Source: Leadbetterella sp. (GTDB lineage Bacteria; Bacteroidota; Bacteroidia; Cytophagales; Spirosomataceae). From it: a DNA stretch of 64,000 nt. The stretch lies in NCBI GenBank assembly GCA_019638185.1, contig JAHBUH010000001.1, positions 62,001 to 126,000 of the forward strand. The letters run 5' to 3'. The notes below the pieces were generated by a model. That model searched no databases, was not told the origin of the DNA, and saw only the letters and a list, made by a program, of their open reading frames with translations. This document shows, one piece after another, positions 18,502 to 56,883 of this stretch; the stretch's first letter is position 1; each line of letters opens with the position of its first letter. The position numbers and the translations under genes are program-made.

Positions 18502-19755
18502 ATGGATCGAAAGATAGAAAAAAAGAAGTGGAGTACGAAGAGGATCATGACCATCGCGGGGATCGCCGGTCTGGCCGGGCTGATCGGGTGGAGCATATAC
18601 GCTACCTCCGGCGGGTCCAAGCTGAACGTAGACACCGAAAGGCTTACCATCAGTGAAGTGACAAAAGGCCCGTTTAAGGAATCCATACCCGTAAACGGCG
18701 TGGTCATGCCTCTTACCACTATCTATCTTGATGTGATGGAAGGCGGCCGCGTGGAAGAGAAGTTCGTGGACGACGGCGCCATGATGACCAAAGGCCAGCC
18801 TATCCTGCGGCTGGGGAACACTGACCTGGAGCTGAGCCTGGCCAGCCAGGAAACCCAGGTATACAACGTTCTGACCCAAATGAACATCTCTAAGAATAAT
18901 GCCACCCAGAATACCATAGGTAAACTGAACCAGATGGCAGAGGTGGATAACGCCCTGAAAGAGGCCGACAGGGTATTCCAGCTGAATAAAAAGCTGTTTG
19001 CCGAAAAGGCCATCGGCCTGCAGGAATTTCAGCAGTCGGAAAACGCCTATAACTACCAGGTAAGAAGAAAAAAACTGACAGACGATATCCTGAAGCAGGA
19101 CGATGAGGTGATCAAGCTCATGCAGAGCCAGGATCGCGAGTCGCTGGCCAAAATGCAGAACACCCTGCAGCTCATGCGGAAAAAAGTGGGCGACCTGGTG
19201 GTGCGGGCGCCTATAGACGGCCAGCTGACCTCCCTCGATGCGGAGATCGGCCAGCTGAAGAATAAAGGTGAGCGGCTGGGGCAGATCGACGTAACGAACG
19301 GGTTTAAGATCCGGGCGGACATTGATGAGCATTACATTAACCGCATCTATACCGACCTCACCGGCGAAGCCACCCTGGCCGGCAAGACCTATAAGCTGAA
19401 GGTGAAGAAGGTATACAGCCAGGTGACAAACGGCCGCTTCCAGGTAGACATGGAGTTTACCGGGGAAACACCGGGCAATATCCGCCGGGGCCAGACCCTG
19501 CAGGTGAGCCTGGCGCTGAGCGACGAGACCACGGCCACGCTCTTACCGCGCGGAGGTTTCTACCAGAAAACAGGCGGTAACTGGGTGTTTAAGGTGAGTG
19601 AAGACGGCAAAAAAGCCTACAAAGTGGATGTGCAGTTTAACCGCCAGAGCCCAGAATATTATGAAGTGGTCAGCGGGCTGAAGCCGGGAGATAAGGTGAT
19701 CACGTCCAGCTACGAGAACTTTGGAGATATCCAGGAACTGATCCTGAAAGAATAA
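18502..19755 (+). CDS. HlyD/MacA-type periplasmic adaptor of the ABC export locus
   Basis: A 417-residue membrane fusion protein and the first gene of the export operon. One N-terminal transmembrane anchor (residues about 16-33) is preceded by a basic cytoplasmic tail. The periplasmic part has the split lipoyl motif (MEGGRVEEKFVDDGAMMTKGQPI and VRAPIDGQLTSLDAEIG), a long alpha-hairpin in between (residues about 110-225, heptad-rich, with the tip motif near FAEKAIGLQEFQQSE), and a beta-barrel/MP domain (RRGQTLQVSLAL, PRGGFYQKTGGNWVF). It would dock the inner-membrane permeases to the TolC at 55477. It is the only adaptor for fourteen permeases. ATG 18502 is used; an out-of-frame ATG at 18488 opens a 9-codon frame across this start. 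Confidence 0.92.
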   Translation: MDRKIEKKKWSTKRIMTIAGIAGLAGLIGWSIYATSGGSKLNVDTERLTISEVTKGPFKESIPVNGVVMPLTTIYLDVMEGGRVEEKFVDDGAMMTKGQPILRLGNTDLELSLASQETQVYNVLTQMNISKNNATQNTIGKLNQMAEVDNALKEADRVFQLNKKLFAEKAIGLQEFQQSENAYNYQVRRKKLTDDILKQDDEVIKLMQSQDRESLAKMQNTLQLMRKKVGDLVVRAPIDGQLTSLDAEIGQLKNKGERLGQIDVTNGFKIRADIDEHYINRIYTDLTGEATLAGKTYKLKVKKVYSQVTNGRFQVDMEFTGETPGNIRRGQTLQVSLALSDETTATLLPRGGFYQKTGGNWVFKVSEDGKKAYKVDVQFNRQSPEYYEVVSGLKPGDKVITSSYENFGDIQELILKE

Positions 19756-19773
19756 ATTTGAAAAAATAAAATT

Positions 19774-20451
19774 ATGATAAAGATTACGGATTTAGAGAAG
19801 TACTACCGCACCGAAGAGGTAGAGACCATTGCCCTGAATAAGCTCTCACTGGAAGTGAAAGAAGGGGAGTTTGTAGCCGTGATGGGCCCCAGCGGCTGCG
19901 GCAAATCTACCCTGCTGAACATCCTGGGTCTGCTGGATGATCCTGACGGCGGCAGCTTTGTCTTTAACGGTACTGAAATAGCCGGTTATAACGAGCGGAA
20001 GCGCGCTGACCTGCGTAAGCATAACATCGGCTTCGTATTCCAGAGCTTTAACCTGATCGATGAGCTGACGGTTTTTGAAAACGTGGAACTGCCGCTCATT
20101 TATACGGGCGTGAAGCCGGCTGACCGGAAAAAGCGCGTGGAAGAAGTGCTGGACAAGATGCAGATCATGCATCGCCGGAACCACTTCCCCCAGCAGCTGT
20201 CCGGCGGGCAGCAGCAGCGGGTAGCTGTGGCCCGGGCCGTGGTAAACCATCCTAAGCTCATCCTGGCCGATGAACCCACCGGTAACCTGGACAGCAGTAA
20301 CGGTAACGAAGTGATGCAGCTCCTCACCGAGCTGAACGAGCAGGGCACCACTGTGATCATGGTAACCCACAGTGAGCACGATGCCAAATACAGCCACCGG
20401 ATCATCCGGATGCTGGACGGGCACACCGTGACCGAGAACATACTCACCTGA
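19774..20451 (+). CDS. ABC transporter ATPase 1 (LolD/MacB type)
   Basis: A 225-residue nucleotide-binding protein of the type VII (MacB/LolD/FtsE) class. All motifs are consensus: Walker A GPSGCGKST (38-46), Q-loop VFQSFNLIDELTV, signature LSGGQQQRVAVARA (142-155), Walker B LILADE (162-167) with catalytic Glu167, D-loop GNLDS (Asp173), and H-loop His199 in VTHSE. It sits between the adaptor (18 bases) and the first permease (48 bases) and would power one or more of the downstream permeases. Confidence 0.95.
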   Translation: MIKITDLEKYYRTEEVETIALNKLSLEVKEGEFVAVMGPSGCGKSTLLNILGLLDDPDGGSFVFNGTEIAGYNERKRADLRKHNIGFVFQSFNLIDELTVFENVELPLIYTGVKPADRKKRVEEVLDKMQIMHRRNHFPQQLSGGQQQRVAVARAVVNHPKLILADEPTGNLDSSNGNEVMQLLTELNEQGTTVIMVTHSEHDAKYSHRIIRMLDGHTVTENILT

Positions 20452-20499
20452 TAGTTCTTCCTACCCACCCGTTCCGCAGGAACCCAACATGCATGACCC

Positions 20500-22869
20500 A
20501 TGATCAAGAATTATTTCAAAATAGCCTGGCGGAACCTGGTCCGCGATAAGGGTTTTTCAGTCCTGAATATCCTGGGCCTGGCCGTGGGGATTGTCTGTGC
20601 GGCCCTCATATTCTTATGGATAAACTATAACCTGCAGACCAATAAGGCCTTCACCGATGCTGATAACCTCTATATCATCAAGAATAACCAGCAGTATGGG
20701 AATGATGTCATGACCTTCAGTTCCACCTCCGGCCCGCTGGCGCCCGCCATCAGCCGGGAAATACCGGGGTTCAGGAAGGTAGCCCGTACCCTGGATTTGG
20801 GAGGGGTTTTCGGTACCGGGGATAAATTTATTACCCGCAGCGGCCTGTATGCCGACAGCTCCTTTTTTGATATCTTCAGTTACCCGGTAATAAAGCAGGC
20901 TGCAGATTATTCCCTGGCTAACCCTACGCATATTGCCATTTCCGCTAAAATGGCCCAGGCTTTTTTCGGCGACGAGAACCCCATAGGCCAGACACTCCGT
21001 TTTAATAAGAACGATCTTTTTACGGTAAAAAAGATCTATGATTTCCCGGATGAAAACATCACCCTGAAGCCTGAGTTTGTGGTATCCCTGAACAAGGGCT
21101 TCCAGGACAGTACTTTTGTAAAATCCTGGAGCTACTGGGGGCAGTGCGGCATGCGTACCTACGCTTCCCTGGATGACAATGCTTCAGCAGAGCACATTAA
21201 TGCCCGGCTAAAGCCCTTTATCAAGGAGAAATCCGGTCAGAAGGTCAGCCATGAGGTTTTCCTGTACCCGGTACTTCGTTTAAATGTATATAACCGTTTT
21301 AAAAACGGGGTGGAGCAGCCCGGCGAGGGGAACATCCGCTACATCCGGATATTCTCTACCGTGGGCCTGATCATCCTGATGATCGCCTGCATTAACTTTA
21401 TGAACCTGGCCACGGCCCGCAGCGAACGCAGGGCCAAGGAGATCGGGCTGAAGAAAGTGGTAGGGGCCAGCCGGGGGCAGATCATCGGGCAGTTCATGCT
21501 GGAAAGCATTACCACGGCCTTTATGGCACTGATCATCGCGGTTTTATCGCTGTACCTGCTCGTGCCGGCGTTTGGCAGGATGCTGGAGATGCCTTTGGAA
21601 TTTAGCCTCTTCCGCAGGGAAAATCTGCTGGGGTTGCTGGCTATAGGACTGTTTTGCGGTATCCTGGCCGGATCCTACCCCAGCCTTTACCTCTCTTCTT
21701 TTAACCCGCTGAATGCCATCAAAAAGAAATTTCAGCGTACTGACGGTGCCTCGCTGATCCGTAAGGGGCTGGTGGTAGCCCAGTTTTCGTCGGCTATCGT
21801 ACTGATCATTGCCATCGTGGTCATCTACAGCCAGATTAATCACGTCCGGAAAAGAGAGTTGGGATATAACCTGGATAATGTAGTGTCTATAGGGATTTCC
21901 GATAAGCTGGTAGGAAATTTTGATGCGCTGAAGCAGACGCTGATCAGTGACGGCACGGCATCGGCTGTGGCCATGTCCACGTCCAGTATCCTGGGCATTT
22001 ATTCTAACGGTGGCGGGTTTAGCTGGCCGGGAAAAGACGACTCCCAGAACCCGCTGATCAGCTTTATAGGCGTGGATGCCGACTTCCTGCCTCTCCTGGG
22101 CGTGAAGATGGCCGAGGGCCGGAACTTCCATAGTGATAGCCAGAAAGAAGGGAACAATATCCTGATCAATGACGCCTTTGCCAAACTCATGGGCAAAGAA
22201 GGCCGGGCCGGTAAAAAACTATACCGGGGCGATGAGAATTATAACATTGTAGGAATTACCCGCCCTTTCCTTTTCAATGACCTCTACGGTTCGGATGAGC
22301 CGGTGATTTTTTACCCCATGTCGCGCCAGGATATAGCCGGCTGGGGCGGCAGCATTTACGTAAAGATGAACGGGAACAAGCTGAATAACCTGGAAACCGG
22401 TATCAAAAAAATAGACAGTGGCTACCCGTTTGATTACTCTTATCTCTCTGACCAGTACGAGGCCATGTTTAAAGGGACGCGTTTTGTGGGGAACCTGGCC
22501 ATGCTTTTCGGCGTACTGGCCGTGTTCATTTCCTGCCTGGGCTTATTCGGGCTTTCAGCTTACACGGCCGCCAGTCGGAAAAAAGAGATCGGCGTACGGA
22601 AAGTGCTGGGAGCCAGTGTATCCCGTATCTCGGTGCTGCTTACCCAAAGCTTCCTGAAGCTGGTGGCGGTATCCTTTGTAATTGCCGCGCCACTGGCCTG
22701 GTACCTGATGAACGGCTGGCTGAAAGACTTTGAATACCGGATCCGGATAGAGTGGTGGATTTTTGCCCTGGCCGGCCTGGTATCCATGGTGATCGCTATC
22801 CTGACGGTGAGCTTCCAGGCTATTAAAGCCGCCCTGGCTAACCCGGTGAAATCCTTACGAACAGAATAA
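20500..22869 (+). CDS. ABC permease 1 of 14 (double-FtsX, MacB-PCD)
   Basis: A 789-residue permease. TM1 is at about 20-42; a MacB-type periplasmic domain (about 43-280) follows; then TM2-TM4 (about 282-304, 336-357, 374-395) with the cytoplasmic coupling motif RRAKEIGLKKVVGAS after TM2; TM5 at about 423-447; a second periplasmic domain; and TM6-TM8 (about 664-688, 720-742, 752-778) with a second coupling motif KKEIGVRKVLGAS. The two FtsX halves make each chain a pseudo-dimer of the four-helix MacB unit. Compared with its array mates it is unusual in using IGLKK rather than IGIRK in the first coupling helix and in a shorter, Asn-rich first loop (NNQQYGND). It is the gene closest to ATPase 1, 48 bases downstream. 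Family assignment is firm; substrate unknown. Confidence 0.94.
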   Translation: MIKNYFKIAWRNLVRDKGFSVLNILGLAVGIVCAALIFLWINYNLQTNKAFTDADNLYIIKNNQQYGNDVMTFSSTSGPLAPAISREIPGFRKVARTLDLGGVFGTGDKFITRSGLYADSSFFDIFSYPVIKQAADYSLANPTHIAISAKMAQAFFGDENPIGQTLRFNKNDLFTVKKIYDFPDENITLKPEFVVSLNKGFQDSTFVKSWSYWGQCGMRTYASLDDNASAEHINARLKPFIKEKSGQKVSHEVFLYPVLRLNVYNRFKNGVEQPGEGNIRYIRIFSTVGLIILMIACINFMNLATARSERRAKEIGLKKVVGASRGQIIGQFMLESITTAFMALIIAVLSLYLLVPAFGRMLEMPLEFSLFRRENLLGLLAIGLFCGILAGSYPSLYLSSFNPLNAIKKKFQRTDGASLIRKGLVVAQFSSAIVLIIAIVVIYSQINHVRKRELGYNLDNVVSIGISDKLVGNFDALKQTLISDGTASAVAMSTSSILGIYSNGGGFSWPGKDDSQNPLISFIGVDADFLPLLGVKMAEGRNFHSDSQKEGNNILINDAFAKLMGKEGRAGKKLYRGDENYNIVGITRPFLFNDLYGSDEPVIFYPMSRQDIAGWGGSIYVKMNGNKLNNLETGIKKIDSGYPFDYSYLSDQYEAMFKGTRFVGNLAMLFGVLAVFISCLGLFGLSAYTAASRKKEIGVRKVLGASVSRISVLLTQSFLKLVAVSFVIAAPLAWYLMNGWLKDFEYRIRIEWWIFALAGLVSMVIAILTVSFQAIKAALANPVKSLRTE

Positions 22870-22918
22870 AAACCAGCCGTCAGCAGGCTCATAGCTGACC
22901 GCTCAAAGCTAAAAAAAT

Positions 22919-25306
22919 ATGATACGGAATTATTTAAAAATAGCCTGGAGAAACCTGCTTAAAAACAAGCAGTTCTCCGCCATTAATATCGGCGGACTGG
23001 CCATAGGCATGTCTGTAGCTATGCTCATCGGCTTCTGGTTATTAGACGAGCTGACCTATGACCGGTATCATAAAAATTACGACAGGGTAGCCCGTATAAT
23101 GCAGAAACAGACGTCAAACGGGGAAATTTATACGGGAGAAGCTTTACCCATGCCTTTGGGTGAAGAGCTGAAAACCCATTACGGAGACAATTTCAAATAC
23201 CTGGCTATGGCCTCCTGGCAGGGTGATCACATCCTGAGCAAAGAAAATGATCACCAGAAGAAAAACGGAATTTATATAGACAAAGACGGTCCGAAGATTC
23301 TTTCCCTGGAAATGGTGAAAGGAAGCCTGAGCGGGTTGAACGATCCCCGGAGTATCCTGTTATCGTCAAGCGCTGCTAAAGCGTTTTTCTCCGGCCGGGA
23401 CCCTATGGGGCAGGTCCTGAAAATTGATAATTCGCATGAAGTAAAGGTAACCGGGGTTTTTAAAGACCTGCCCTATAATACCGAATTCCGTGACCTGGAG
23501 TTTATTGCCCCCTGGGACTTATACGTGACTACCGAGCCATGGTTAAAAAACGCAAAAACGCAATGGGGTAATAACTCGTTCCAGGCATTTGTCCAGATCA
23601 ATGATCATACGGATTTTGCTACGGTAAACAAGCATATCCTCCATTCCAAGCTGAACCGGGTTCCGGATGAAGATAAGAAATACAATTCGGAGATTTTCCT
23701 GTTTCCGATGAAAGACTGGCACCTGCATTCTAACTGGAAAAATGGTGTTCAGACGGGCGGACTGATTGAATACGTACGAATGTTTGCCGTTATAGGTGCA
23801 TTTGTGCTACTACTGGCCTGCATTAATTTTATGAACCTGAGCACGGCCCGTTCCGAGAAACGCGCCAAAGAAGTAGGCATCCGGAAGACGGTGGGATCTG
23901 CCCGGGGGCAGCTGGTCAGCCAGTTCCTTTGCGAATCACTGCTGGTGGCTTTTATGGCTTTCTTCCTGGCTTTTTTCCTCACCTGGTTACTACTGCCCTG
24001 GTTTAACAGTGTGGCCCATAAACAGATGAGCATTCCCTGGAGTAATGTAGGTTTCTGGCTGGGCTGCCTGGCATTTACACTGATTACGGGAGTATTGGCA
24101 GGCAGTTACCCCGCTTTATTCCTTTCTTCCTTCGAGCCGGTAAAGGTGCTGAAAGGTACCTTTAAAGCCGGAAAACTGGCCGGTTTGCCCCGGAAAGCGC
24201 TGGTAGTAACCCAATTCACCGTATCGGTAGCCCTGATCATCGGTACGGTCATCGTTTACCAGCAGATTCAGCACACCAAAAACCGGCCGGTGGGTTATGA
24301 CAGGAATGGCCTGGTAATGATAGCCATGAGTACACCGGAATTCTACGGGAAATATGACCTGCTACGGACAGAACTGAAACAAAAGGGCGCCATTACGGAA
24401 ATGGCGGAATCGTCCAGTCCGTTAACGGCCGTATGGAGCAATAGCGGAGGCTTTGAGTGGGAAGGAAAGGACCCGAACCTGGATACCGACTTTGCCACTT
24501 TCTGGGTAACCCATGACTACGGGAAGACCGTAGGCTTTGAAATGGCCGAAGGGAGAGATTTCTCCCGCGACTTCCCCACTTATTCTTCCGCCATCCTGAT
24601 TAATGAAGCGGCCATTGATTTTATGAACCTGAAAAACCCGGTTGGTAAAACAATCAGGTGGGGAGACAGTCCCAACCTTACCATCATCGGGATAGTAAAA
24701 AATATGATCGCCAGTTCACCGTTCAAACCGGTAAAACAGGCCGTATACTTCTTAAACTATGAGAATGTAAACTGGATCACTCTCCGGTTGAACCCCCGTA
24801 AAAGTGCGAAAGAGTCGCTGGCTATAGTGGAAGACGTCTTTAAAAGAATTGTTCCGTCGGCTCCGTTTGACTACAAATTTACCGACGAGGAATATGCTGC
24901 AAAATTCGCCCAGGAAGAGCGGGTGGGCACGCTGGCCACCTTTTTTGCCGGCCTGGCCATCCTGATCAGTTGCCTGGGCCTGTTCGGCCTGGCCTCTTTC
25001 GTAGCTGAACAGCGTACTAAAGAGATCGGTATCCGCAAGATCGTAGGGGCATCGATACTCAATCTGTGGCAGCTGCTGTCCAAAGATTTTGTGCTGCTGG
25101 TGCTGATCGCCTGCGCCATAGCCATTCCTTTGGCCTGGTACTACCTGAATAATTGGCTACAGGGCTACGAATACCGGATAAGAATCCAATGGTGGGTCTT
25201 TGCCCTCTCCGTGGCCGGTGCCGTGCTGGTTACCCTGGTTACGGTGAGTTTCCAGGCCATTAAAGCGGCCCTGGCCAACCCAGTGAAAAGTTTGAGAACG
25301 GAGTAA
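22919..25306 (+). CDS. ABC permease 2 of 14 (double-FtsX, MacB-PCD)
   Basis: A 795-residue member. It pairs most closely with permease 3: both have the first-domain landmarks SWQG(D/E)H and HEVKVTGV(F/Y)(K/E)DLP, and the second-domain landmark GGFEWEGKDPNL near residue 510. The first coupling motif is ACINFMNLSTARSEKRAKEV around residue 300, the second RTKEIGIRKIVGAS around residue 700. Its start is atgatacggaattattt, a spelling shared with permease 14 but with few others. The gene ends in the class-A junction (agt ttg aga acg gag for SLRTE). A 48-base spacer with the class-B text GCTCAAAGCTAAAAA precedes it. Likely a tandem duplicate partner of permease 3, now well diverged. Confidence 0.94.
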   Translation: MIRNYLKIAWRNLLKNKQFSAINIGGLAIGMSVAMLIGFWLLDELTYDRYHKNYDRVARIMQKQTSNGEIYTGEALPMPLGEELKTHYGDNFKYLAMASWQGDHILSKENDHQKKNGIYIDKDGPKILSLEMVKGSLSGLNDPRSILLSSSAAKAFFSGRDPMGQVLKIDNSHEVKVTGVFKDLPYNTEFRDLEFIAPWDLYVTTEPWLKNAKTQWGNNSFQAFVQINDHTDFATVNKHILHSKLNRVPDEDKKYNSEIFLFPMKDWHLHSNWKNGVQTGGLIEYVRMFAVIGAFVLLLACINFMNLSTARSEKRAKEVGIRKTVGSARGQLVSQFLCESLLVAFMAFFLAFFLTWLLLPWFNSVAHKQMSIPWSNVGFWLGCLAFTLITGVLAGSYPALFLSSFEPVKVLKGTFKAGKLAGLPRKALVVTQFTVSVALIIGTVIVYQQIQHTKNRPVGYDRNGLVMIAMSTPEFYGKYDLLRTELKQKGAITEMAESSSPLTAVWSNSGGFEWEGKDPNLDTDFATFWVTHDYGKTVGFEMAEGRDFSRDFPTYSSAILINEAAIDFMNLKNPVGKTIRWGDSPNLTIIGIVKNMIASSPFKPVKQAVYFLNYENVNWITLRLNPRKSAKESLAIVEDVFKRIVPSAPFDYKFTDEEYAAKFAQEERVGTLATFFAGLAILISCLGLFGLASFVAEQRTKEIGIRKIVGASILNLWQLLSKDFVLLVLIACAIAIPLAWYYLNNWLQGYEYRIRIQWWVFALSVAGAVLVTLVTVSFQAIKAALANPVKSLRTE

Positions 25307-25353
25307 AAGTAAAGTCATTTTTTCGTGAAGCCGTTTTTCCGGAAAGCAGAATA
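25289..25353 (+). repeat. 65-bp exact direct repeat, copy 1 (end of permease 2 and spacer)
   Basis: The last 18 bases of permease 2 and the following 47 bases are identical, base for base, to 27772-27836 at the end of permease 3. It includes the perfect palindrome TTTCCGGAAA at 25336-25345. The repeats are 2483 bp apart, about one gene unit, so recombination between them would delete or duplicate exactly one permease. Confidence 0.9.
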
Positions 25354-25404
25354 CAACGCATCAGAAAAGCGAAATTACGAAAAAACAAAAAAACCGAAAA
25401 ACCC

Positions 25405-27789
25405 ATGATACGAAACTATTTCAAAATTGCTTTTCGCAGCCTTGTACGCAGCAAGGGCTACAGCGCCATCAATGTAGGCGGGCTGGCTGTGGGTATGGCG
25501 GTGGCCATGCTGATCGGCCTGTGGGTGCACGATGAATTGACATTCAATCAATACCATCAGAATTATAACCGCATCGTGCAGGTCATGCAGCATGCCAACT
25601 TTAATGGTAAGATAAGTACGCAGGTATCTAACCCGGCCGCTATGGGTCCGGAGATCCGTGCGCGGTACGGCAGCGACTTCAAGCATGTGCTCCAGGCTTC
25701 CTGGCAGGGAGAGCACATGATCTCGGTGGGCGATAAGCACCTGATGCAGGAAGGAATGTTTTTTGAACCCGGTGCACCGGATATGCTGTCGCTCAAAATG
25801 TTGAAAGGAACCCGTGCCGGATTAAAAGACGCTCATTCCATCTTTCTTTCCGCCTCAGCAGCAGAAGCTATATTCGGGAAGGAAGATCCCCTTTATAAAA
25901 CCATACGGTTGGATAAGCTCCATGAGGTAAAAGTGACCGGAGTCTATGAAGATCTTCCGGAGAATACCACGTTCAGGGCCGTTAAAATCATGATGCCCTG
26001 GGACTTGTGGGTTGTTCAGAACCCCTGGGTGAAAACCATGAGCAGCCCGTGGTCAAGTAACTTTTCCCAGACATTTGCCCAGCTGGCCGATAACGCAGAC
26101 CTGAGCCGGGTTTCTGCTAAAATTAAAAATGTAAAGCGGGACAATGTAGGTGAAAGCGAAAAAAAATACCAGTGGGTGGTTTTCCTGCACCCCATGAGCA
26201 AATGGAAGCTGTATAGTGAATTCAAAGACGGGATAAATACGGGCGGGAGTATCCGCTACGTGAAGCTGTTCAGCCTGATAGGCCTGTTTGTTTTGTTGCT
26301 GGCCTGTATCAACTTTATGAACCTGAGCACTGCCAGAAGTGAAAAGCGGGCGAAAGAAGTAGGAATCCGGAAAACGGTAGGTTCATTCCGCTGGCAACTT
26401 ATAGGTCGTTTTTTTGCAGAATCCTATGTGATCGTGCTGCTGGCCTTTATCCTCTCATTGCTGTTGGTTATCATCCTTTTACCCCTCTTTAACGAGATAG
26501 CTGGGAAAAAAATGGAACTCCCCTGGCAGCATCCTTTCTTCTGGCTGATCAGCCTGGCGTTCATGTGGATCACCGGTTTGCTGGCCGGAAGTTACCCCGC
26601 GTTTTATCTGTCTTCTTTCCAGCCTTTAAAAGTGCTGAAAGGCACGTTTAAAGCTGGCCGGTTTGCCAGTGTGCCCCGCCGGGTTTTGGTAGTTGTCCAG
26701 TTTACGGTATCTGTCATACTGGTCATCGGCACCCTGATTGTGTATCAGCAGATCCGGTATGCCAAAAACCGGCCCATAGGGTATAACCGCAGTGGCCTGA
26801 TCAACCTGAGCATGCAGGAGGAAATAGGCAGGCATTTTGATGCCGTAAGGACTGAATTGCTCCAAACGGGAGCTATTGAATCGATGGCGGCCACCTACAG
26901 TCCGCTTACCAGTGCATGGAACACCAACGGCGGTTTTGAATGGGAGGGAAAAGACCCCAACCTGGCCGTTGATTTTCCCAACAGCGGCGTGTCTTACGAA
27001 TATGGCAAAACCATCCAATGGAAAATTAAGGTAGGTCGCGATTTTTCAAAGGAATTTGCCACCGATTCGGCCGCTTTTGTCATAAACCAATCTGCGGCAG
27101 ACTTTTTGGGAATGAAAGACCCCGTAGGCAAAACGCTGAGATGGAATAACCAGCCATACACCATCATCGGTGTGGTCAGCGACCTGTTGCAGGAATCACC
27201 TTTTTTCCCTGTTCGCCCATCGCTGTATCATATCCGTGACTATGCTGATCTGCCTAACCTGCTGATCCGGCTTAACCCGGACCGGAGCGTGACAGAATCC
27301 ATAAGCTCGATAGAAAGTGTCTGGAAAAAACATATTAAGGAAGCTCCTTTTGGCTACACGTTTGTTGACGAGGCTTTCGGAGATAAGTTCCGTTCAGAAG
27401 AGCGCATCGGGAAATTGTCGTCGTGGTTCGCCGTGCTGGCCATCTTTATCTCCTGTCTCGGGCTGTTTGGCATGGCCAGCTTCGTGGCTGAACAGCGCAC
27501 TAAGGAAATAGGCATCCGTAAGGTATTGGGGGCAAGCGTGGCAAACCTCTGGCGCCTGTTATCCGGAGAGTTTGTGTTACTGGTGTTATTGTCGTGCATT
27601 ATAGCTGTGCCGATAGCCTGGTATTATCTCAATGACTGGCTGGCCAATTACGATTACCGGATCAGTATCAGTTGGGTAGTTTTTGTCCTTGCCGCAGTTG
27701 CGGCCCTGCTGATCACCCTGGCTACGGTAAGCTGGCAGGCCATCAGGGCAGCCCTGGCCAACCCGGTGAAGAGTTTGAGAACGGAGTAA
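25405..27789 (+). CDS. ABC permease 3 of 14 (double-FtsX, MacB-PCD)
   Basis: A 794-residue member and the closest relative of permease 2 in the array. It is distinguished by MQHANFNGKISTQVSN in the first periplasmic domain and by a compact aromatic TM8 (ISWVVFVLAAVAALLITLATVSW). First coupling motif ACINFMNLSTARSEKRAKEV near residue 300, followed by TVGSFRWQ; second RTKEIGIRKVLGAS. It is bordered on both sides by class-A junctions (98-base spacer before, 125-base spacer after), and its start uses cga for Arg3, as do the other genes that follow class-A spacers. Its third residue onward reads NYFKIAFRSL rather than the usual AWRNL. Confidence 0.94.
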   Translation: MIRNYFKIAFRSLVRSKGYSAINVGGLAVGMAVAMLIGLWVHDELTFNQYHQNYNRIVQVMQHANFNGKISTQVSNPAAMGPEIRARYGSDFKHVLQASWQGEHMISVGDKHLMQEGMFFEPGAPDMLSLKMLKGTRAGLKDAHSIFLSASAAEAIFGKEDPLYKTIRLDKLHEVKVTGVYEDLPENTTFRAVKIMMPWDLWVVQNPWVKTMSSPWSSNFSQTFAQLADNADLSRVSAKIKNVKRDNVGESEKKYQWVVFLHPMSKWKLYSEFKDGINTGGSIRYVKLFSLIGLFVLLLACINFMNLSTARSEKRAKEVGIRKTVGSFRWQLIGRFFAESYVIVLLAFILSLLLVIILLPLFNEIAGKKMELPWQHPFFWLISLAFMWITGLLAGSYPAFYLSSFQPLKVLKGTFKAGRFASVPRRVLVVVQFTVSVILVIGTLIVYQQIRYAKNRPIGYNRSGLINLSMQEEIGRHFDAVRTELLQTGAIESMAATYSPLTSAWNTNGGFEWEGKDPNLAVDFPNSGVSYEYGKTIQWKIKVGRDFSKEFATDSAAFVINQSAADFLGMKDPVGKTLRWNNQPYTIIGVVSDLLQESPFFPVRPSLYHIRDYADLPNLLIRLNPDRSVTESISSIESVWKKHIKEAPFGYTFVDEAFGDKFRSEERIGKLSSWFAVLAIFISCLGLFGMASFVAEQRTKEIGIRKVLGASVANLWRLLSGEFVLLVLLSCIIAVPIAWYYLNDWLANYDYRISISWVVFVLAAVAALLITLATVSWQAIRAALANPVKSLRTE

Positions 27790-27836
27790 AAGTAAAGTCA
27801 TTTTTTCGTGAAGCCGTTTTTCCGGAAAGCAGAATA
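27772..27836 (+). repeat. 65-bp exact direct repeat, copy 2 (end of permease 3 and spacer)
   Basis: Identical to 25289-25353, including the stop codon context and the palindrome TTTCCGGAAA at 27819-27828. Identity ends at AGAATA; after that both spacers become A-rich but diverge. Confidence 0.9.
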
Positions 27837-35126: not shown

Positions 35127-35250
35127 AGGTAAAGTTGTGATTTTGTGATTTCGTAAAGTCGTTTTTTTGTAAAGTTGTTTTTCCCAAAAGCAGATACAGC
35201 CCGTCAAAAAAACAAAAAAACAAAAGCACCCAAACAAAAAAACAAAAACC
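35127..35250 (+). repeat. Class-A intergenic spacer, variant form
   Basis: A 124-base spacer built from short repeated words (GTAAAGTTGT, GTAAAGTCGT) and then an A-rich run up to the next ATG. It shares TTCCCAAAAGCAG with the spacer at 49581-49673 and the CCCGTCA...AAAACAAAAAAAC portion with the spacer after permease 3. No TAnnTTTG box is seen, so it does not look like an internal promoter. Confidence 0.6.
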
Positions 35251-49580: not shown

Positions 49581-49673
49581 CAGTAGGTAAAGTTGTTTTT
49601 TCGTAAAGTCGTTTCCCAAAAGCAGGCTGTAACAAATTTACAAAAACACAAAAAGAACTAATTTTTAAAAAAC
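49581..49673 (+). repeat. Class-A intergenic spacer, shortened form
   Basis: A 93-base spacer with GGTAAAGTTGTTTTTTCGTAAAGTCG, shown here as the words GGTAAAGTTG and CGTAAAGTCG, then TCCCAAAAGCAG and an A-rich run before the next start. It is a diverged relative of 25307-25404, 27790-27914 and 35127-35250. Confidence 0.6.
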
Positions 49674-52127
49674 ATGATCAAGCTATTCATCACCACCCTC
49701 GCGCGGCAGCTCTGGCGGAACCGCCTCTACACCTTCCTTAATATCCTGGGCCTCAGTGTGTGCATCAGTGTGGCCTGGGTCATCTTCCGGATGGTGGATT
49801 ACGAATACAGCTACGACAGCAAGATCCCTGATGCCGACCGGATTTACCAGGTCTACAGCAAAGACCAAAGCAGTGATGGTACGGTAAGTGACTTTACCGC
49901 CATACCTAAGCCGGCTTTAGTGGCGCTCGCCGAAACCATCCCCGGTGTGGAGCTGGCCGTTCCCATGTTTTACAAATACCATCATCATGCCGCCCTGCCC
50001 GGGAAAGAAAGGGAGCAGATCCGCCGTAAAATAGGAGAGGAGGAGGTAGACGTGCAGCTGGTCTCTACCACGCCGGATTACTTCCGGATGTTTCCCCATC
50101 GCTTTCTGGCCGGGAATGCCCGAAATGCGCTGGACGCACCCGATAAAGTGATCCTGACGGATGCCAAGGCCGCCGAATATTTTCCCGGCCTGACCCCGGC
50201 CGATGTCATCGGGAAAACGATTATTTATGATGATTCCGTGACCCGCCGGGTATCCGCCGTGATAGCTGCTTTTGACTTCCCTAACAGCTTTGAAGCCGAT
50301 GACCAGTTCATTGCTATCCGTAAAAAAGACCGGGCGGAGACGAATTGGACCAGCATGAACTCCAATGACCAGATCTTTGTCATGCCCTCAGCCGAAACAG
50401 GCATTGCCCGGATCATGGATCAGCTCAATAAGATCTATGCCGAGCAGGGCAAAGAGAGCTTTGAGAAGTATAAGTATAAAAGCTGGTTTGAGGTTTTTTC
50501 GCTCAGTCAGAAGCATTTTGAAACCCGGCATAATGCCCAAACCCGCACGGCTGACAGGAAAGTGCTGAACGGACTCATCATCACGGCCGCATTCCTGCTG
50601 CTCCTGGCCTGTATTAACTATATTAATCTCAGCACGGCCCAGCTCCCGCAGCGTGCCCGTGAGATCGGTATCCGTAAAACCCTGGGCAGTTCTAAACGAA
50701 ACCTCGTTCTCCGGTTTATCGCTGAAACCCTCGTAGTGACCTCCCTGGCGGCATTGCTCTCTTTCGGATTCACCGCCATAAGCAGTCGCTTATTTCATGA
50801 TTTCCTGCCCGAAGGCCTGCATAATTACATGAATTATACCGGTATGATGGCTTTTATGGGGGTTCTGATTGTAGCCATATCGGTGTTTTCGGGGCTTTAC
50901 CCGGCCTGGCTTTCGGCCCGGGTCAATACCGTGAATGTACTAAAAGGGGTGACGGAAAAAGTAGCGGGCCGGAATTTTTTCTCCCTGCGCAAGGGGCTGA
51001 TCGTCTTCCAGTTCCTCATCGCCCAGGTGTTTATTATCGGCAGCATCATTATCCGGGAGCAAATGCAGTTTTCGCTCGATGAAAACCCCGGTTTTAACAA
51101 AGACGCGATGATTACCATACAGGTACCCTATCATGTGGCCAGTGATCCTGTTTATAAAGGGAAGATCATGGTACTGAAAGAAGAGCTGGGCAGAAATCCG
51201 GCAGTAGCCGGTGCAGCTGTGGGTGACCGCCCCATGGATAACACCATGATCAGTAACCTCCTGAAATATTATAAAGATACTACGGAGATCCAGACTGCCA
51301 TGCACATGAAATTCGGGGATAAAGATTACCTGCCCCTATACGGATTTAAGCTCCTGGCGGGCCGGAATTTCATGCCTTCCGATACGATGAACGAGATCAT
51401 CATCAATCAGAAAGCCATGGAAACTTACGGATGGAGCTCGCCGGAAGAAGCCATCGGGAAAACGCTGGTCTCGCCATCCGGTAAGGCCAGGAACTATCCC
51501 ATAGTGGGAGTGGTGTCTGATTTTCACCAGTTTGGCTTTAAAACAGAGATTAAACCGGGACTTATTACTACCCAAAAAATACCGTCTACCACGCTCAATA
51601 TCCGCTTACCGGAGCAGCCGTCCCAATGGACCCCGGCGCTCCGGGCTGTAGAACAGGAATGGAAAAAAGTGTATGCCGGTGTGCCGTTTAAATACACCTT
51701 TTACGATGAAACCATCGGGAAATTCTATGAAAGTGAAAAACGTACCCAAAAGCTGGTGGCAGCCGCTACTTCTATTGCTATCCTGATCAGTTGCCTGGGC
51801 CTCTTCGGACTGGCCACCCTCACCGCTTTCCGCCGCACCAAAGAGATCGGCGTACGCAAGGTACTCGGGGCATCGGTTTTCGGTATCACGAAGTTGCTTC
51901 AACTGGAATTTCTGTCCCTCGTGCTGGTGTCGGTGGTTATTGCTTCGCCCATCGCCTGGTGGATGATGAATAAATGGCTGCAGGATTTTGTCTTCCGGAT
52001 CGAGATCCGGTGGTGGGTGTTTGCCATAGCCGCAGTGGCGGCCACCGTCATTGCGCTCCTGACTGTAAGCTACCAGGCCATCCGGGCGGCAGTAGCTAAT
52101 CCTGTGAAGTCATTGAGAACAGAATAG
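49674..52127 (+). CDS. ABC permease 13 of 14, longest and divergent (double-FtsX, MacB-PCD)
   Basis: At 817 residues the longest member. The start is MIKLFITTLARQLWRNRLYT, unlike the common MIRNYFKIAWRNL. The first periplasmic domain carries a charged insertion near residue 105-125 (HHHAALPGKEREQIRRKIGE) that most mates lack. TM2 end ACINYINLSTAQLPQRAREI, then GIRKTLGSSKRN; second coupling motif RTKEIGVRKVLGASVFG. In the second domain VGDRPMDNTMISNLLKYYKD replaces the usual SSP...W motif. Despite these differences it ends NPVKSLRTE and is followed by a 22-base class-B-like spacer. It belongs with 10 and 14 in a second clade of the array. Confidence 0.93.
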   Translation: MIKLFITTLARQLWRNRLYTFLNILGLSVCISVAWVIFRMVDYEYSYDSKIPDADRIYQVYSKDQSSDGTVSDFTAIPKPALVALAETIPGVELAVPMFYKYHHHAALPGKEREQIRRKIGEEEVDVQLVSTTPDYFRMFPHRFLAGNARNALDAPDKVILTDAKAAEYFPGLTPADVIGKTIIYDDSVTRRVSAVIAAFDFPNSFEADDQFIAIRKKDRAETNWTSMNSNDQIFVMPSAETGIARIMDQLNKIYAEQGKESFEKYKYKSWFEVFSLSQKHFETRHNAQTRTADRKVLNGLIITAAFLLLLACINYINLSTAQLPQRAREIGIRKTLGSSKRNLVLRFIAETLVVTSLAALLSFGFTAISSRLFHDFLPEGLHNYMNYTGMMAFMGVLIVAISVFSGLYPAWLSARVNTVNVLKGVTEKVAGRNFFSLRKGLIVFQFLIAQVFIIGSIIIREQMQFSLDENPGFNKDAMITIQVPYHVASDPVYKGKIMVLKEELGRNPAVAGAAVGDRPMDNTMISNLLKYYKDTTEIQTAMHMKFGDKDYLPLYGFKLLAGRNFMPSDTMNEIIINQKAMETYGWSSPEEAIGKTLVSPSGKARNYPIVGVVSDFHQFGFKTEIKPGLITTQKIPSTTLNIRLPEQPSQWTPALRAVEQEWKKVYAGVPFKYTFYDETIGKFYESEKRTQKLVAAATSIAILISCLGLFGLATLTAFRRTKEIGVRKVLGASVFGITKLLQLEFLSLVLVSVVIASPIAWWMMNKWLQDFVFRIEIRWWVFAIAAVAATVIALLTVSYQAIRAAVANPVKSLRTE

Positions 52128-52149
52128 AAATCAGCAAGCTCAAAGAAAT

Positions 52150-54543
52150 ATGATACGGAATTATTTAAAAACGGCCTGGCGAAATCTGCTTAAAACAAAG
52201 ATTTTTTCGGTGATTAACATCAGCGGGCTTGCGTTCGGGCTGACCGTATTTTGGTTGATTGCGCTTTTTATTACTGATGAGCTGAACTACGATAAATACC
52301 ATGAAAAGGCAGACAGGATTTTCCGCCTGGCTTCTCATGGCCGGTGGGACGGCGGCAGCTTTGATATCGCCGTCACTTCCGGGCCCACGGCAGCGGCCCT
52401 GAAAAATGAATATCCTGAAGTGGAACAAACGGTGCGTATCGCTTCCGGCGCGGGTGGGGTGATTCTGCATCAGCAAAACCGGCTAAAGGCCGATGCGGTT
52501 TTCTACGCCGACAGCAGTTTCTTTTGCGTTTTCACCTATAATTTCATAGCAGGTAACCGCCTTCATGCGCTCACGGAACCCCGGTCCATCGTACTCACTG
52601 AAGACCTGGCCATAAAGCTTTTTGGAAGTGCGGAGGCCGCCCTTAACCAGTTCATCCGCTTCCGTAACGATCCTCCCTGCCGGATCACCGGTGTCATTGA
52701 AAATGTGCCCGGTAATTCCCATTTTACCTTTGAAGCCATCCGGTCCTTTCCCAAAGACTTTAACCCCGACTGGGGAAACTTTTACCTCTATACCTATGTG
52801 GTGTTAAAGGATGCCGGTAATGCGGCGGATCTGCAAAAGAAACTACCCGCTTTTGTAGAAAAATACTTCCACAGCCAGGGGATGGAGATCGAATATTCTT
52901 TAGAACTGCAGCCCTTACGTTCCATCCACCTGCAGTCAGACCTGGGCTATGAACCGGGGGTAAACCGGAGCCTGAAGTCCGTGTATACATTTTCTCTGAT
53001 CGCTTTGCTGATTCTTGTCATTGCGGTCATAAACTACGTGAATATAACCACGGCGCGGGCGTCTGTCCGCCTCAAAGAAGTGGCTGTCCGGAAAATCATC
53101 GGTTCTGACCGCAAAGGCCTGGTAAATCTTTTCCTGACGGAATCTTTTTTAATTATTCTTTGTGCGGTATCACTGAGCATGGCACTGGCCTGGTTTCTCC
53201 TGCCTGTATTTAATCACCTCACGGGTAAGGCGCTGAGCCTTTGGGATTTTGGGATCCCGGAAACGCTGCTGGTTTTGAGCGCGGTTTCCCTGCTCTTAAA
53301 CGGGATAGGAGGGCTGTATCCCGCCGTGTTTTTATCCGGGTTCAAAATTATACCGGCGCTGCGAAACAAAATGGGCAATACCTCTTTCCAGGCACTTTTC
53401 CGGAAATCACTGGTTACCCTGCAGTTTACCATTACGACCATCATGCTGGTGGCTACCCTGGTGATTTACAGGCAACTGCACTTTATGACCCATACCGATC
53501 TGGGCCTGGATAAAAACCAGTTGCTCACCTTCAGCCTGGATAACCGGGAAACTAAAATTAACCCGGAGGAGCTGAGAAATGAATTGTTAAAGAAAACGGC
53601 CATAACTGCGGTGGCTTTTGCCGGAAGCCCGCTGGGAAATAACCATGTCATTGATATTAAAGCATTTAATGTGGAAAAAAACGGGGCCATTGATCCTAAT
53701 ATCACCCTGGCTAACGGTTTGATCATGGATGACGCCTATATTCCCGCCATGGGCATTAAAATGAAGCAGGGGCGGAACTTTAACAGGCTGCTGGCTACAG
53801 ACAGCGCTTCTGTTATCATCAATGAGGCCTTTGCCCGGGAAAAGGGCTGGGAGAATGCCATCGGCAAAAGAATAGAAGTTCCGGCCGATTCTAACCGGAG
53901 ATCCCTCGTTAAAACGGTTATCGGGGTGACAAAAGACTTTCATGCTTACTCTTTACAGCACAAAATAGAGCCCATGATCATGGAATTGCCCTCTTCCATG
54001 AGCGAAAAAAAGAATGCTTACGTACGAATAAGCCGGCAAAATATCCCGGAAACCATTCAATATATACAAACTACTTTTCAGAAATTTGACCCGGATACGC
54101 CCTTCGAATACGGCTTCCTGGATCAGAGTTTCCGGAAGCAATACGAATCGGAAGAAAGGCAGGGCCGGTTAATGCTGGTATTTACCGGCCTGGCCATCAC
54201 CATCGCCTGCCTGGGGCTGTTCGGGTTAATCACCTTTACCACCGGCCAGCGGATTAAAGAAGTGGGGATCCGGAAAGTATTTGGCGCTTCTACAGGCAGC
54301 CTGGTGAAGCTGTTATCCCTGGACCTGATCAGGCTGGTCCTGCTGGCTTTATTCATTGCGTTCCCGGTTTCGTGGTTCGTAATGAATGCCTGGCTGGAGG
54401 ATTTTGCTTACCGGGTATCCGTCAGTTGGGAGATATTTTTACTGGCCGCATGCATAGGCGTTTTGATCATGGGGCTTACCATCAGCTACCAGGCCATCCG
54501 GGCGGCCACGGCCAATCCCGTGAAAGCATTACGAAATGAATAA
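52150..54543 (+). CDS. ABC permease 14 of 14 (double-FtsX, MacB-PCD)
   Basis: A 797-residue member, last in the array. TM1 reads INISGLAFGLTVFWLIALFI. TM2 end AVINYVNITTARASVRLKEV followed by AVRKIIGSDRKG, the most altered first coupling helix here; the second is RIKEVGIRKVFGASTGS. The tail is NPVKALRNE. The start codon context (atgatacggaattatttaaaaa) matches that of permease 2, cited here only as the 5' word ATGATACGGAATTA. The second ATPase begins 21 bases after its stop, so this permease and ATPase 2 are the most plausible direct pair. Confidence 0.93.
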   Translation: MIRNYLKTAWRNLLKTKIFSVINISGLAFGLTVFWLIALFITDELNYDKYHEKADRIFRLASHGRWDGGSFDIAVTSGPTAAALKNEYPEVEQTVRIASGAGGVILHQQNRLKADAVFYADSSFFCVFTYNFIAGNRLHALTEPRSIVLTEDLAIKLFGSAEAALNQFIRFRNDPPCRITGVIENVPGNSHFTFEAIRSFPKDFNPDWGNFYLYTYVVLKDAGNAADLQKKLPAFVEKYFHSQGMEIEYSLELQPLRSIHLQSDLGYEPGVNRSLKSVYTFSLIALLILVIAVINYVNITTARASVRLKEVAVRKIIGSDRKGLVNLFLTESFLIILCAVSLSMALAWFLLPVFNHLTGKALSLWDFGIPETLLVLSAVSLLLNGIGGLYPAVFLSGFKIIPALRNKMGNTSFQALFRKSLVTLQFTITTIMLVATLVIYRQLHFMTHTDLGLDKNQLLTFSLDNRETKINPEELRNELLKKTAITAVAFAGSPLGNNHVIDIKAFNVEKNGAIDPNITLANGLIMDDAYIPAMGIKMKQGRNFNRLLATDSASVIINEAFAREKGWENAIGKRIEVPADSNRRSLVKTVIGVTKDFHAYSLQHKIEPMIMELPSSMSEKKNAYVRISRQNIPETIQYIQTTFQKFDPDTPFEYGFLDQSFRKQYESEERQGRLMLVFTGLAITIACLGLFGLITFTTGQRIKEVGIRKVFGASTGSLVKLLSLDLIRLVLLALFIAFPVSWFVMNAWLEDFAYRVSVSWEIFLLAACIGVLIMGLTISYQAIRAATANPVKALRNE

Positions 54544-54564
54544 TTGTTTAAAATACACAAAAAT

Positions 54565-55227
54565 ATGTTAGAACTAAAAGGAATTTTTAAATGGGTGAAC
54601 ACCGGCGGAAACCGGGTATTTCTGCTGAAAGACGTGGATCTGAGTGTGAAAGAAGGCGAGTTTATCTCCATCATGGGGCCGTCAGGATCCGGGAAATCCA
54701 CCCTTCTGAACGTGATCGGTATGTTGGATGACTTCAACGAGGGCGAGTACACCTTCCTGCATGAACCCGTACACACCCTGAAAGAAAAACACCGTTCAGC
54801 GCTCTATAAGCAATACATCGGTTTCGTCTTCCAGGCTTATCACCTCATCGATGAGCTTACCGTATACGAAAACATTGAAACCCCGCTGCTCTACCAGGAC
54901 ATCAAGAGCAGCGAACGCAAGGCCCTGGTAGCCGACATGCTGGACCGCTTTAACATCGTAGGCAAAAAAGACCTGTTCCCCACCCAGCTGTCAGGTGGCC
55001 AACAACAGCTGGTAGGCATAGCCCGCGCCCTCATCGCCAAGCCCCGCCTGCTCCTGGCCGATGAACCCACCGGTAACCTGAACAGCAAACAAGGCGAAGA
55101 AATCATGGAACTCTTCTCCCAGCTAAACAAAGAAGGCATGACCATCATCCAGGTCACCCACAGTGAAAAAAACGCCTCCTACGGCACCCGCACCATCCAT
55201 CTACTGGACGGAAGAATAGATAATTAA
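54565..55227 (+). CDS. ABC transporter ATPase 2 (LolD/MacB type), slightly degenerate motifs
   Basis: A 220-residue ATPase that aligns with ATPase 1 without gaps over residues 28-200. Walker [10 protein letters not shown] (38-46), Walker B LLLADE with Glu167, and His199 in VTHSE are intact. Three positions differ: Leu149 and Gly151 in [14 protein letters not shown] where ATPase 1 has Arg and Ala, and Asn173 in the D-loop GNLNS where ATPase 1 has Asp. It is therefore probably active but could act as the weaker half of a heterodimer with ATPase 1. ATG 54565 is used; a TTG at 54544 would add seven residues that do not fit the family. Codons here end in C more often than in the permeases. Confidence 0.94.
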
Positions 55228-55476
55228 AAAGTTATATATTTAACATATAAAATATAAAAATAAATATATAAATGTATAATTTAATAATTATCTAAATAAT
55301 AAAAAATTAATGTACCATATAACACAAAATAGTCCGTTTAAAAAATTGGATTTCAAAAGAGATTATTGCTCTTAAATAGTTGACAGACAATTTTTTAAGA
55401 GGACATTATTTTGTGAATGTTTTTTACGGACGGCCGCTGCCGTTACTTTTTTCAAAAAAAAGTAAAAACAAAAATT
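55228..55476 (+). other. Extremely AT-rich intergenic block before the second TolC
   Basis: A 249-base gap in an otherwise tightly packed operon. The block 55261-55320 has 5 G/C in 60 bases. Near the end, ACTTTTTT and AAAAAAGT (55445-55463) form an A/T hairpin just before the TolC start, and CATTATTTTG (about 55405) is a near-miss of the -7 box. It may hold a separate promoter for TolC, be a curved or protein-bound DNA segment, or be the scar of an insertion. No open reading frame of note is seen. Confidence 0.6.
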
Positions 55477-56883
55477 ATGAAAAAACTAACATACCTAATA
55501 TTATCCCTCCTGTACACCACAGGAATGGCCCAAACTCCGCTTTCCCTCAAAGAATGCATTGAAACCGCCCTGAAAAATAACCAAACTGTGAATCAGGCCG
55601 GTATACAGGCCCAAAGTAGCGAGATCCAGCTCCGGCGGTCGCAACTAAACAAGTTGCCCGGCGTGAACGCCTCCATAGGTCACGGCATTAACCAGGGCCG
55701 AAGCATTGACCCCTTCACTAACTCCTACGTCAATAACCAACTGGGGTATGGAAATTACGGCGTAAGTGCCGGGGTCATCCTTTTCAGCGGCGGAGCCCTG
55801 AATAACGCCGTGGCCCGCGACCGCCTCGGGTATGAGGCTGCTCGGATGGACCTTCAGCAGGCAAAAGATAACCTCACCATTAACGTGATCCTGGCTTACC
55901 TCACCGTTCTGACCAATGAAGAAGTGCTTAACCAGATGCAGAACCAGCTGGAACTCACCCGGAAACAGGTAGAACGACTGGAAGTGCTGAACAAGGACGG
56001 GAGCATCCCGCCTTCCCAACTGTCCGATCTCCAGGGCCAGTACGCCGGCGAACAGCTCTCCCTCATTAACACCAGGAACAGTGTGGAATCGTCCAAGCTG
56101 ACCCTCTGCCGGCTCATGAACGTGCCATACAGCAGCCCCATGACCCTGGAAAAGATAAATCCGGAGCTCCCCGGCCTTTATGGCGCCCGGGCGGAAGAGG
56201 TATACCAGTCGGCCCTGCAGCATTTTGCCGGCATAAAAGCGGCCGACTTCCGGCTGAAGAGTGCTGAAAAAGCCGTAGACGTGGCCCGCGGGGAGCTTTG
56301 GCCCACCTTACGCCTCGGGGTGAATGTGAACACCAACTACTCCAGTGCCGCCAGCACCAGCACCCTCCTGAATACCAATACCGTGGCATCGTCTGATTTC
56401 GTGAGTGTAGGCGGTACCCAGTACCCCGTCATGCGGCAGGTCAGTAATTACGCCAGCGATAATATCCCTTATGGGCGGCAGTTGACCGGCAACTTCTTCT
56501 CCTCCTTCGGCCTGAGCCTGAACATTCCTGTGTTTAACGGCCTGGAGCAGCGAAACCGGGTAAAATTAGCGCGCTTAACCGTAAAAAATAACGAGCTGGC
56601 CGCCCGAACAGCCAGAACCGAGCTGGATCAGGCCATAGACCAGGCTGCCCTTAATCTGCAGACTGCGCTGGAGCGCTGCGAAACCTTGGAACAGCAGGTA
56701 CAGGCCTTCAAAGCCTCTTTCCAGGCCGCCGAAACCCGTTTTAACGAGGGTGTGGGCACGTCCATTGATTACCTCACGGCAAAAAACAACCTGGACCGGG
56801 CGAACATTAACCTGATTTCCGCCCAATACGAAGCCGTCCTGCGTTCAAAAGTCCTGAACTTCTACAAAGGAGACCTGGAGTAA
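55477..56883 (+). CDS. TolC family outer-membrane channel of the ABC export locus
   Basis: A 468-residue TolC-type protein. ATG 55477 gives a normal signal peptide (MKKLTYLILSLLYTTGMAQ); the frame is open 20 codons further up but that extension is charged and not signal-like. OEP motifs are LSLKECIETALKNNQTVNQA at the start and a second helical repeat with AAETRFNEGVGTSIDYLTAK near the end. FSGGALNNAVARDRLGYEAA follows the first beta part. It is the last gene of the export operon and the exit duct for all fourteen permeases if they are functional. Confidence 0.93.
   Translation: MKKLTYLILSLLYTTGMAQTPLSLKECIETALKNNQTVNQAGIQAQSSEIQLRRSQLNKLPGVNASIGHGINQGRSIDPFTNSYVNNQLGYGNYGVSAGVILFSGGALNNAVARDRLGYEAARMDLQQAKDNLTINVILAYLTVLTNEEVLNQMQNQLELTRKQVERLEVLNKDGSIPPSQLSDLQGQYAGEQLSLINTRNSVESSKLTLCRLMNVPYSSPMTLEKINPELPGLYGARAEEVYQSALQHFAGIKAADFRLKSAEKAVDVARGELWPTLRLGVNVNTNYSSAASTSTLLNTNTVASSDFVSVGGTQYPVMRQVSNYASDNIPYGRQLTGNFFSSFGLSLNIPVFNGLEQRNRVKLARLTVKNNELAARTARTELDQAIDQAALNLQTALERCETLEQQVQAFKASFQAAETRFNEGVGTSIDYLTAKNNLDRANINLISAQYEAVLRSKVLNFYKGDLE

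Follow-up and report, generated by a model that had tools for sequence, protein, structure and literature searches.

A probable sigma-54-controlled regulon of MacB-like exporters whose fourteen double permeases appear to share one core

In MacAB-TolC exporters, MacB proper is an ATPase fused to a single permease half, the ADOP permeases (TIGR03434) are named for their lack of ATPases, and the darobactin exporter has one permease. Some Bacteroidota genomes carry large numbers of double FtsX permeases that have neither ATPases nor an assigned function, and in passages of one report two Dyadobacter genomes are credited with 28 and 33 duplicated orphan permeases, a group whose function is unknown (PMC11573002). 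According to passages of two further reports, one pseudosymmetric permease binds two ATPase subunits via two coupling helices in the solved YbbAP complex (PMC12646458), and COG0577 FtsX-type permeases are enriched among predicted sigma-54 targets in Bacteroidia, Opitutia and Gammaproteobacteria, a prediction there termed first evidence (PMC12316311). Here, an exporter locus of Leadbetterella sp. (Bacteroidota; Spirosomataceae) is described from positions 62,001 to 126,000 of contig JAHBUH010000001.1 in assembly GCA_019638185.1; these 64,000 nucleotides are the window, and coordinates are counted from its first letter. Fourteen double permeases stand in it beside one adaptor, two ATPases and one outer-membrane channel. 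Judged from its sequence, the locus is a real system and a variant of the MacB-type tripartite exporter. From gene content, an upstream site, its spacing and its distribution, we put the probability at roughly 0.7 that it belongs to a sigma-54-controlled regulon of MacB-like exporters, here one operon, in which the fourteen double permeases use one shared core.

The locus runs in one direction on the + strand (18502-56883), from an HlyD adaptor through ATP-binding cassette (ABC) ATPase 1, fourteen double MacB/FtsX permeases and ABC ATPase 2 to a TolC-type channel. An earlier note made from the same DNA had given this order, with gaps mostly under 130 bases and fourteen intact permeases, and in coordinates, strand, order and intactness it is borne out; the gaps measure 0-125 bases throughout the array, and the widest, 189 bases, lies ahead of TolC. 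The HlyD/MacA-type periplasmic adaptor (18502-19755; PF13437, TIGR01730) has an N-terminal hydrophobic segment, and ATPase 1 (19774-20451; PF00005) has intact Walker A, signature and Walker B motifs. For ATPase 2 (54544-55227; PF00005), the ATG at 54565 is a likelier start than the TTG at 54544, and for the channel (55417-56883; PF02321) the likelier start is 55477, where its signal peptide seems to begin. Two divergent genes on the - strand (15584-18245), absent from the earlier note, are counted as part of the exporter system: a sensor histidine kinase (15584-16912; HATPase_c) with two hydrophobic segments and a very short loop in its first ~55 residues, and a sigma-54-type response regulator or enhancer-binding protein (16899-18245) with receiver (PF00072), AAA+ (PF00158) and Fis-type helix-turn-helix (PF02954) domains.

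The control region was compared with those of relatives, for which 80 named adaptor loci were fetched (the best 80 of 358). Many of these share one order, namely a divergent kinase and regulator, then adaptor, ATPase 1 and permeases, followed by ATPase 2 and TolC where the stretch reaches that far. Their record titles are mostly those of Chitinophagaceae, Sphingobacteriaceae and Cytophagales, with more distant loci in Calditrichota, KSB1, Ignavibacteriales and others. The activator motif reads GAFTDA in 55 of 69 regulator orthologues, GAFTGA in 3 and neither in 11, and RpoN is present in all 12 genomes tested. A scan with a strict sigma-54 consensus gave little above background, and a signal emerged with TGGCAY alone, the -24 box of sigma-54 promoters: it occurs within 200 bases of the adaptor in 61/81 upstream regions (shuffled expectation 5.4%), including some matches only 7-18 bases from the start codon that cannot be promoters. 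A count of enriched words in the same regions gave TGTATCAA in 38, against 1.7 expected, and a wider form, TGTNNSNAAANNNNACA, is found in 45/81 and yields the 17-base consensus TGTATCRAAANCGNACA. Where a strict site is followed by TGGCAY (36 regions), the smallest distance between them is 68-72, 79 or 90-92 bases. A TGT-N11-ACA partner lies 20-24 bases away for 25 of 44 strict sites, and this spacing of partner sites explains the two main site-promoter distances.

All these elements are present at the head of the window operon. A putative activator site that matches the consensus perfectly (TGTATCAAAAACGTACA, 18382-18398, + strand) is preceded, 22 bases upstream, by a degenerate second copy read from the sequence (TGTACCGCCACCGTACA, 18360-18376, +), and a sigma-54-like promoter (TGGCATAATTTTGATT, 18452-18467, +) opens with TGGCAT at 18452, 70 bases past the start of the perfect site and so at one of the spacings set in relatives. 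The site at 18382 is the only perfect match in its own genome; a one-mismatch site at 356820 lies ahead of a 720-aa gene that is not part of the system. No exact TGGCAY or site was found on the + strand in the 17 gaps of the run, each taken with the preceding 60 bases. The regulon seems, from the sequence, to be one operon in this genome. The earlier note had proposed a set of exporters selectable for different stresses; at the level of transcription this finds no support, given the one site and promoter at the head and the common site of scattered permeases in relatives, and the permeases look as if they are switched on together. If permeases are chosen at all, substrate or competition for the core would decide.

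No extracytoplasmic sensor domain is apparent in the window kinase from its sequence and simple hydropathy, and the N-termini of its orthologues are similar. The signal may be perceived within the membrane or the cytoplasm, or else the pump itself may detect it, by analogy with Bce systems. A stronger form of this analogy would make the locus a sensing and detoxification module in which the permeases chiefly sense envelope-active peptides on behalf of the kinase, with export secondary. The short-looped kinase fits such a module, and BceS is described as likewise unable to sense bacitracin itself, needing BceB and active BceA (passages of PMC5985334). However, here an adaptor and TolC lie within the operon, as many as 24 diverse permeases accompany a kinase, unlike in Bce, and the activator is of the sigma-54 type, so that we consider this explanation unlikely, if still worth keeping in mind.

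As the motif was defined at adaptor operons only, other positions serve as an independent test of the regulon. Sixteen genomes hold 38 perfect sites, of which 14 stand at operon heads; of the 24 in other places, 23 precede exporter genes (18 double permeases and 5 ATPase 2-TolC pairs). The chance of a site falling within 300 bases upstream of a double permease is ~3 to 6 in 10,000. Seventeen of the 18 permease-linked sites lie directly ahead of the permease, one of them inside the long Segetibacter array, and one is followed by a phosphopantetheinyl transferase gene before the permease. Of the five ATPase 2-TolC pairs behind a perfect site, three are at the end of their genome's main array and two are elsewhere. 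A TGGCAY-like box (TGGCAY, TGGTAY or TGGCGY) stands 68-70, 80 or 89-93 bases from 20/30 exporter-linked sites fetched apart (zero or one mismatch), and at regulon distances from 2/10 sites that are not ahead of exporter genes.

The distribution of the parts agrees with this. Within the family of the window genome, the adaptor is found at E 1e-110 or better in 14/222 genomes, its own included, and a perfect site is present in 12 of these 14 and in 6 of the other 208 (Fisher p = 7e-14); a backward-pattern control gave 2/222 genomes. In these family searches the best adaptor and ATPase 2 candidates of each genome were scored. ATPase 2 at ≥73% identity was found in 13 of the 14 adaptor genomes, even where it lies on another contig, and in no other genome among the matches listed, the remainder of which reach ≤68%. 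Segetibacter has a long array with no close ATPase 2 beside it, and a close ATPase 2-TolC pair elsewhere behind the same site. Array, orphan permeases and pump core therefore look like one regulon in sequence terms, and since one site is common to them, the scattered permeases of relatives would be expected to be induced together.

Two sites in Niastella vici are of interest in themselves. The phosphopantetheinyl transferase gene mentioned above (PF01648; L226, 4899-5552) lies between activator site and orphan double permease, a position that hints at natural-product export. The lone perfect site away from exporter genes (L228) is ahead of a 215-aa open reading frame and a hybrid two-component protein, and nonetheless has a TGGCAY box at 90 bases, a regulon distance.

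The permeases themselves are P01 (20500-22869), P02 (22919-25306), P03 (25405-27789), P04 (27915-30293), P05 (30335-32686), P06 (32703-35126), P07 (35251-37635), P08 (37653-40049), P09 (40074-42458), P10 (42461-44833), P11 (44851-47217), P12 (47220-49580), P13 (49674-52127) and P14 (52150-54543), all on the + strand and identified by PF12704 search, domain matches and sequence. Each is 783-817 aa long without internal stop and carries two MacB_PCD and two FtsX stretches. In the genome (4.2 Mb, 39 contigs), PF12704 matches 35 places, of which 28 are the halves of these fourteen proteins and 7 are in open frames of 402-484 aa; no double permease was found outside the array by this search. Pairwise identity among the fourteen is 26-55%, which makes collapse or expansion of repeats in the assembly unlikely. 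Mean pairwise identity in 20-residue blocks is 0.63 for the N-terminal helix and 0.64 and 0.64 for the two coupling segments, against 0.13-0.37 for periplasmic blocks, and it reaches 0.92 over the last nine residues. This pattern is consistent with one ATPase serving permeases of different cargo. For P06, a confident structure prediction (predicted local distance difference test score 91.6) has four plus four long helices; PDB profile matches include MacB. The model shows two repeats, each made up of one long helix, then a mixed periplasmic domain, then three further long helices. In each half the second long helix is followed by a short one, as expected for coupling helices on our assignment.

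The regulon with a shared core would work as follows. The divergent kinase would activate the response regulator by phosphorelay, and the regulator would bind tandem sites of the consensus form and fire one promoter, giving a single transcript for adaptor, both ATPases, fourteen permeases and channel. Each permease chain would be a fused pseudo-dimer with two MacB periplasmic domains, eight transmembrane helices and two coupling helices, taking two ATPase subunits, an arrangement for which the YbbAP complex is a precedent, and docking to the common adaptor and TolC. Conserved cytoplasmic surfaces would keep the ATPase common, and variable periplasmic domains would set the cargo, for which amphiphilic peptides or small natural products, captured from the periplasmic side as proposed for MacB, are our guess. 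Sharing of ATPase, adaptor and channel had been suggested by the earlier note, and support for it is indirect: the ratio of 14 permeases to two ATPases, one adaptor and one channel, the varying number of permeases beside the same adaptor and ATPase 1 in relatives, the same site ahead of orphan permeases and ATPase 2-TolC, and the co-occurrence of ATPase 2 with the adaptor.

Several observations weigh against this picture. In the switch, the -12 half of the promoter is weak and departs from the sigma-54 consensus, whereas the -24 box is strong and at set distances. TAnnTTTG, which we take to be the -7 motif of ordinary promoters in Bacteroidota, is found twice in the operon head (18457 and 18469) and again at 19753, so a second, ordinary type of promoter at the head is possible. 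By simple hydropathy, a further hydrophobic stretch follows residue 70 in 18 of 60 kinase orthologues. As for the regulon, the reversed pattern is found at 21 places in the 16 genomes, against 93 for the site (up to one mismatch), and so the one-mismatch sites include chance matches. Seventeen of these were fetched apart, of which 9 precede a double permease and 8 have no exporter genes behind them; 5 further ones comprise 2 ahead of permeases, 2 ahead of ATPase 2-TolC and 1 ahead of neither, the remaining places having been judged from coordinates alone or not judged. A perfect site is missing from two of the 14 adaptor genomes (G077, G172) and from Mucilaginibacter pedocola. A complete genome of the same genus (G008), which has adaptor, ATPase 1 and one permease, gave no ATPase 2 match at 1e-75 with 13 of 57 candidates scored, so ATPase 2 may be dispensable in some cases. 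Coupling helices are conserved throughout the fold and are no proof of a shared ATPase. Finally, by hand tally in two genomes, the site (up to one mismatch) precedes 16 of 31 orphan double permeases (8/16 in G256, 8/15 in G238), and those without it may belong to something else.

The half of the counted orphans without a site, together with permease fragments in some other loci (G249, G273 and G172 among them, although some may be contig ends) and the 7 single-size PF12704 proteins of the window genome, would suit an explanation in which the adaptor core serves no more than one or a few permeases, and the others depend on different MacB-type ATPases or are spares undergoing drift. All fourteen are full length, however, and keep the conserved N-terminal, coupling and C-terminal segments, and many orphans elsewhere retain the common site; this explanation is accordingly held to be rather improbable, about on a level with the Bce-like module. 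It is more doubtful still that the locus is no exporter and instead serves the envelope in mechanotransmission or membrane extraction, in the manner of FtsEX or YbbAP. The likeness is that YbbP, as described in passages of PMC12646458, is also a fused pseudosymmetric type VII permease with two ATPase subunits, but the adaptor and TolC stand in the same run here and the ATPase 2-TolC pair of relatives carries the same site.

In a tree of 398 permeases, the nearest neighbour lies within the same array for 20 of 383 array members, with ~9 expected when labels are shuffled, and for all fourteen window permeases it is in another genome, a count that favours other genomes where the sample holds close relatives, the window's one same-genus adaptor genome having a single permease. 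Recent tandem duplication or an assembly artefact, in favour of which the similar spacers after P02 and P03 might be cited, has next to no probability in view of these neighbours and of the 26-55% identity, and recent duplication in place is ruled out on the same grounds. Window lineages are also found as orphans, P03 with a permease of Flavihumibacter fluminis (L240) and P07 with one of Niastella vici (L227), and P04 neighbours the single adaptor-adjoining permease of the same-genus genome. On the tree, the array is a gathering of old lineages that occur also at other positions, with no fresh duplicates. The spacer after P02 (25307-25404), used as a genome query, has as its sole other strong match the spacer after P03 (27790-27914; 86% identity over 87 bases). 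These two and two other long gaps (35127-35250 and 49581-49673) look related by eye, and the four may mark joints between blocks of permeases.

The locus may also have moved between lineages. The window adaptor is 74% identical to that of a Ferruginibacter metagenome-assembled genome (MAG), 67-70% to those of Mucilaginibacter and 54-58% to those of Adhaeribacter. No 16S ribosomal RNA gene was found in the window's own assembly; the same-genus genome has three, with identities of 83-84% to Adhaeribacter, 83% to Mucilaginibacter and 79-80% to three Chitinophagaceae. The difference between the two patterns hints at horizontal transfer.

Permeases beside the same adaptor and ATPase 1 number 1-24 across 57 loci under one counting rule. 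Segetibacter aerophilus has 24, Hufsiella arboris 21, Terrimonas NS-102 at least 21, a Chitinophagaceae MAG at least 16 and Mucilaginibacter pedocola 15, so that 5 of the 56 other loci examined exceed the window's 14, and at the other extreme the same-genus genome has one. The median is 6 per locus in what is a biased sample, as loci were picked partly for looking long and for long contigs. Thirteen of the 57 are flagged as truncated at the edge of their stretch; one (G077) still reaches ATPase 2 and the other 12 are lower bounds. The claim that a run of fourteen is exceptional did not survive this count of homologous loci, which the earlier note had itself called for: array length is what varies, and fourteen is long without being a record. 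Two of the 57 loci, those of G003 and G004, belong to a sister system (adaptor 41-42% identical to that of the window), and were examined for gene order (G003 C194, L206; G004 C2, L207). An adaptor of this sister system, 38-42% identical to that of the window, is present in 16/25 family genomes. Non-permease genes inside the arrays of relatives indicate no clear cargo. A protein of ~345 aa with a signal-like N-terminus and TSGGSISV-like repeats is found inside six long arrays (G241, G244, G245, G275, G259 and G265), in copies 41-69% identical, and could be an accessory protein or cargo.

Further genes lie near the array in the window. An RND (resistance-nodulation-division) efflux operon at 6950-12412 (adaptor, 1028-aa AcrB-type pump and outer-membrane channel) ends 6 kb upstream, a Nramp-like transporter is at 5632-6792, and LamB/YcsF and carboxyltransferase-domain genes, which we take to be 5-oxoprolinase-like, are at 13015-14801.

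Through a common regulatory site, many double permeases are linked to one adaptor, two ATPases and a single channel, which points to their likely partners, and the regulon gives a large protein family whose function is unknown a role that can be tested. If this is correct, the range of export would be widened as further permease genes join a pump core that stays the same. A bolder version, to which we give even odds, is a combinatorial export machine, with one kinase, one activator and one core of ATPases, adaptor and channel serving a large pool of exchangeable double permeases. Permeases would then move between arrays and orphan positions with the same promoter and compete for the core, the cargo range would shift by gain or loss of single permease genes, and many orphan double permeases of Bacteroidota would be subunits of one machine.

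Compared with known systems, the locus resembles MacAB-TolC in the MacB-type periplasmic domain and FtsX fold of its permeases (14/14) and in having an HlyD-type adaptor and a TolC-type channel in the same run. It differs in its layout, with separate ATPases, a fused double permease, and fourteen permeases beside one core behind a sigma-54 activator. ADOP is the best NCBIfam match of 13/13 permeases scanned (P12 was left out), and for 12 of these the match spans nearly the whole model in one stretch, although at 271-331 bits the scores are below the curated cut-off of 622.3, and the window permeases stand with ATPases flanking the array, an adaptor and a channel. The darobactin exporter DarBCD gives the best NCBIfam match of both ATPases (NF038007) and of the adaptor (NF038010), but the equivalog cut-offs are missed for DarB (87-170 of 700 bits), DarC (160 of 450) and DarD (298 and 244 of 375). 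BceAB-BceRS has an activator of a different type, and shares with the window locus a type VII permease associated with its own kinase; the Bce kinase cannot sense unaided, and the window kinase may be alike in this. Passages of PMC5985334 describe Bce as having a ten-transmembrane-helix permease and no adaptor. The sigma-54 link is not new in itself, since PMC12316311 predicts sigma-54 control of FtsX-type permeases; the passages of that report on COG0577 permeases name no activator, site, array or shared core. No description of the regulon or of shared-core permease arrays was found among the literature matches listed, with most subscription journals outside coverage. Within the literature covered, and as far as the searches go, what is new is a kinase and regulator dedicated to the system, the site with its spacing, and the proposed shared core.

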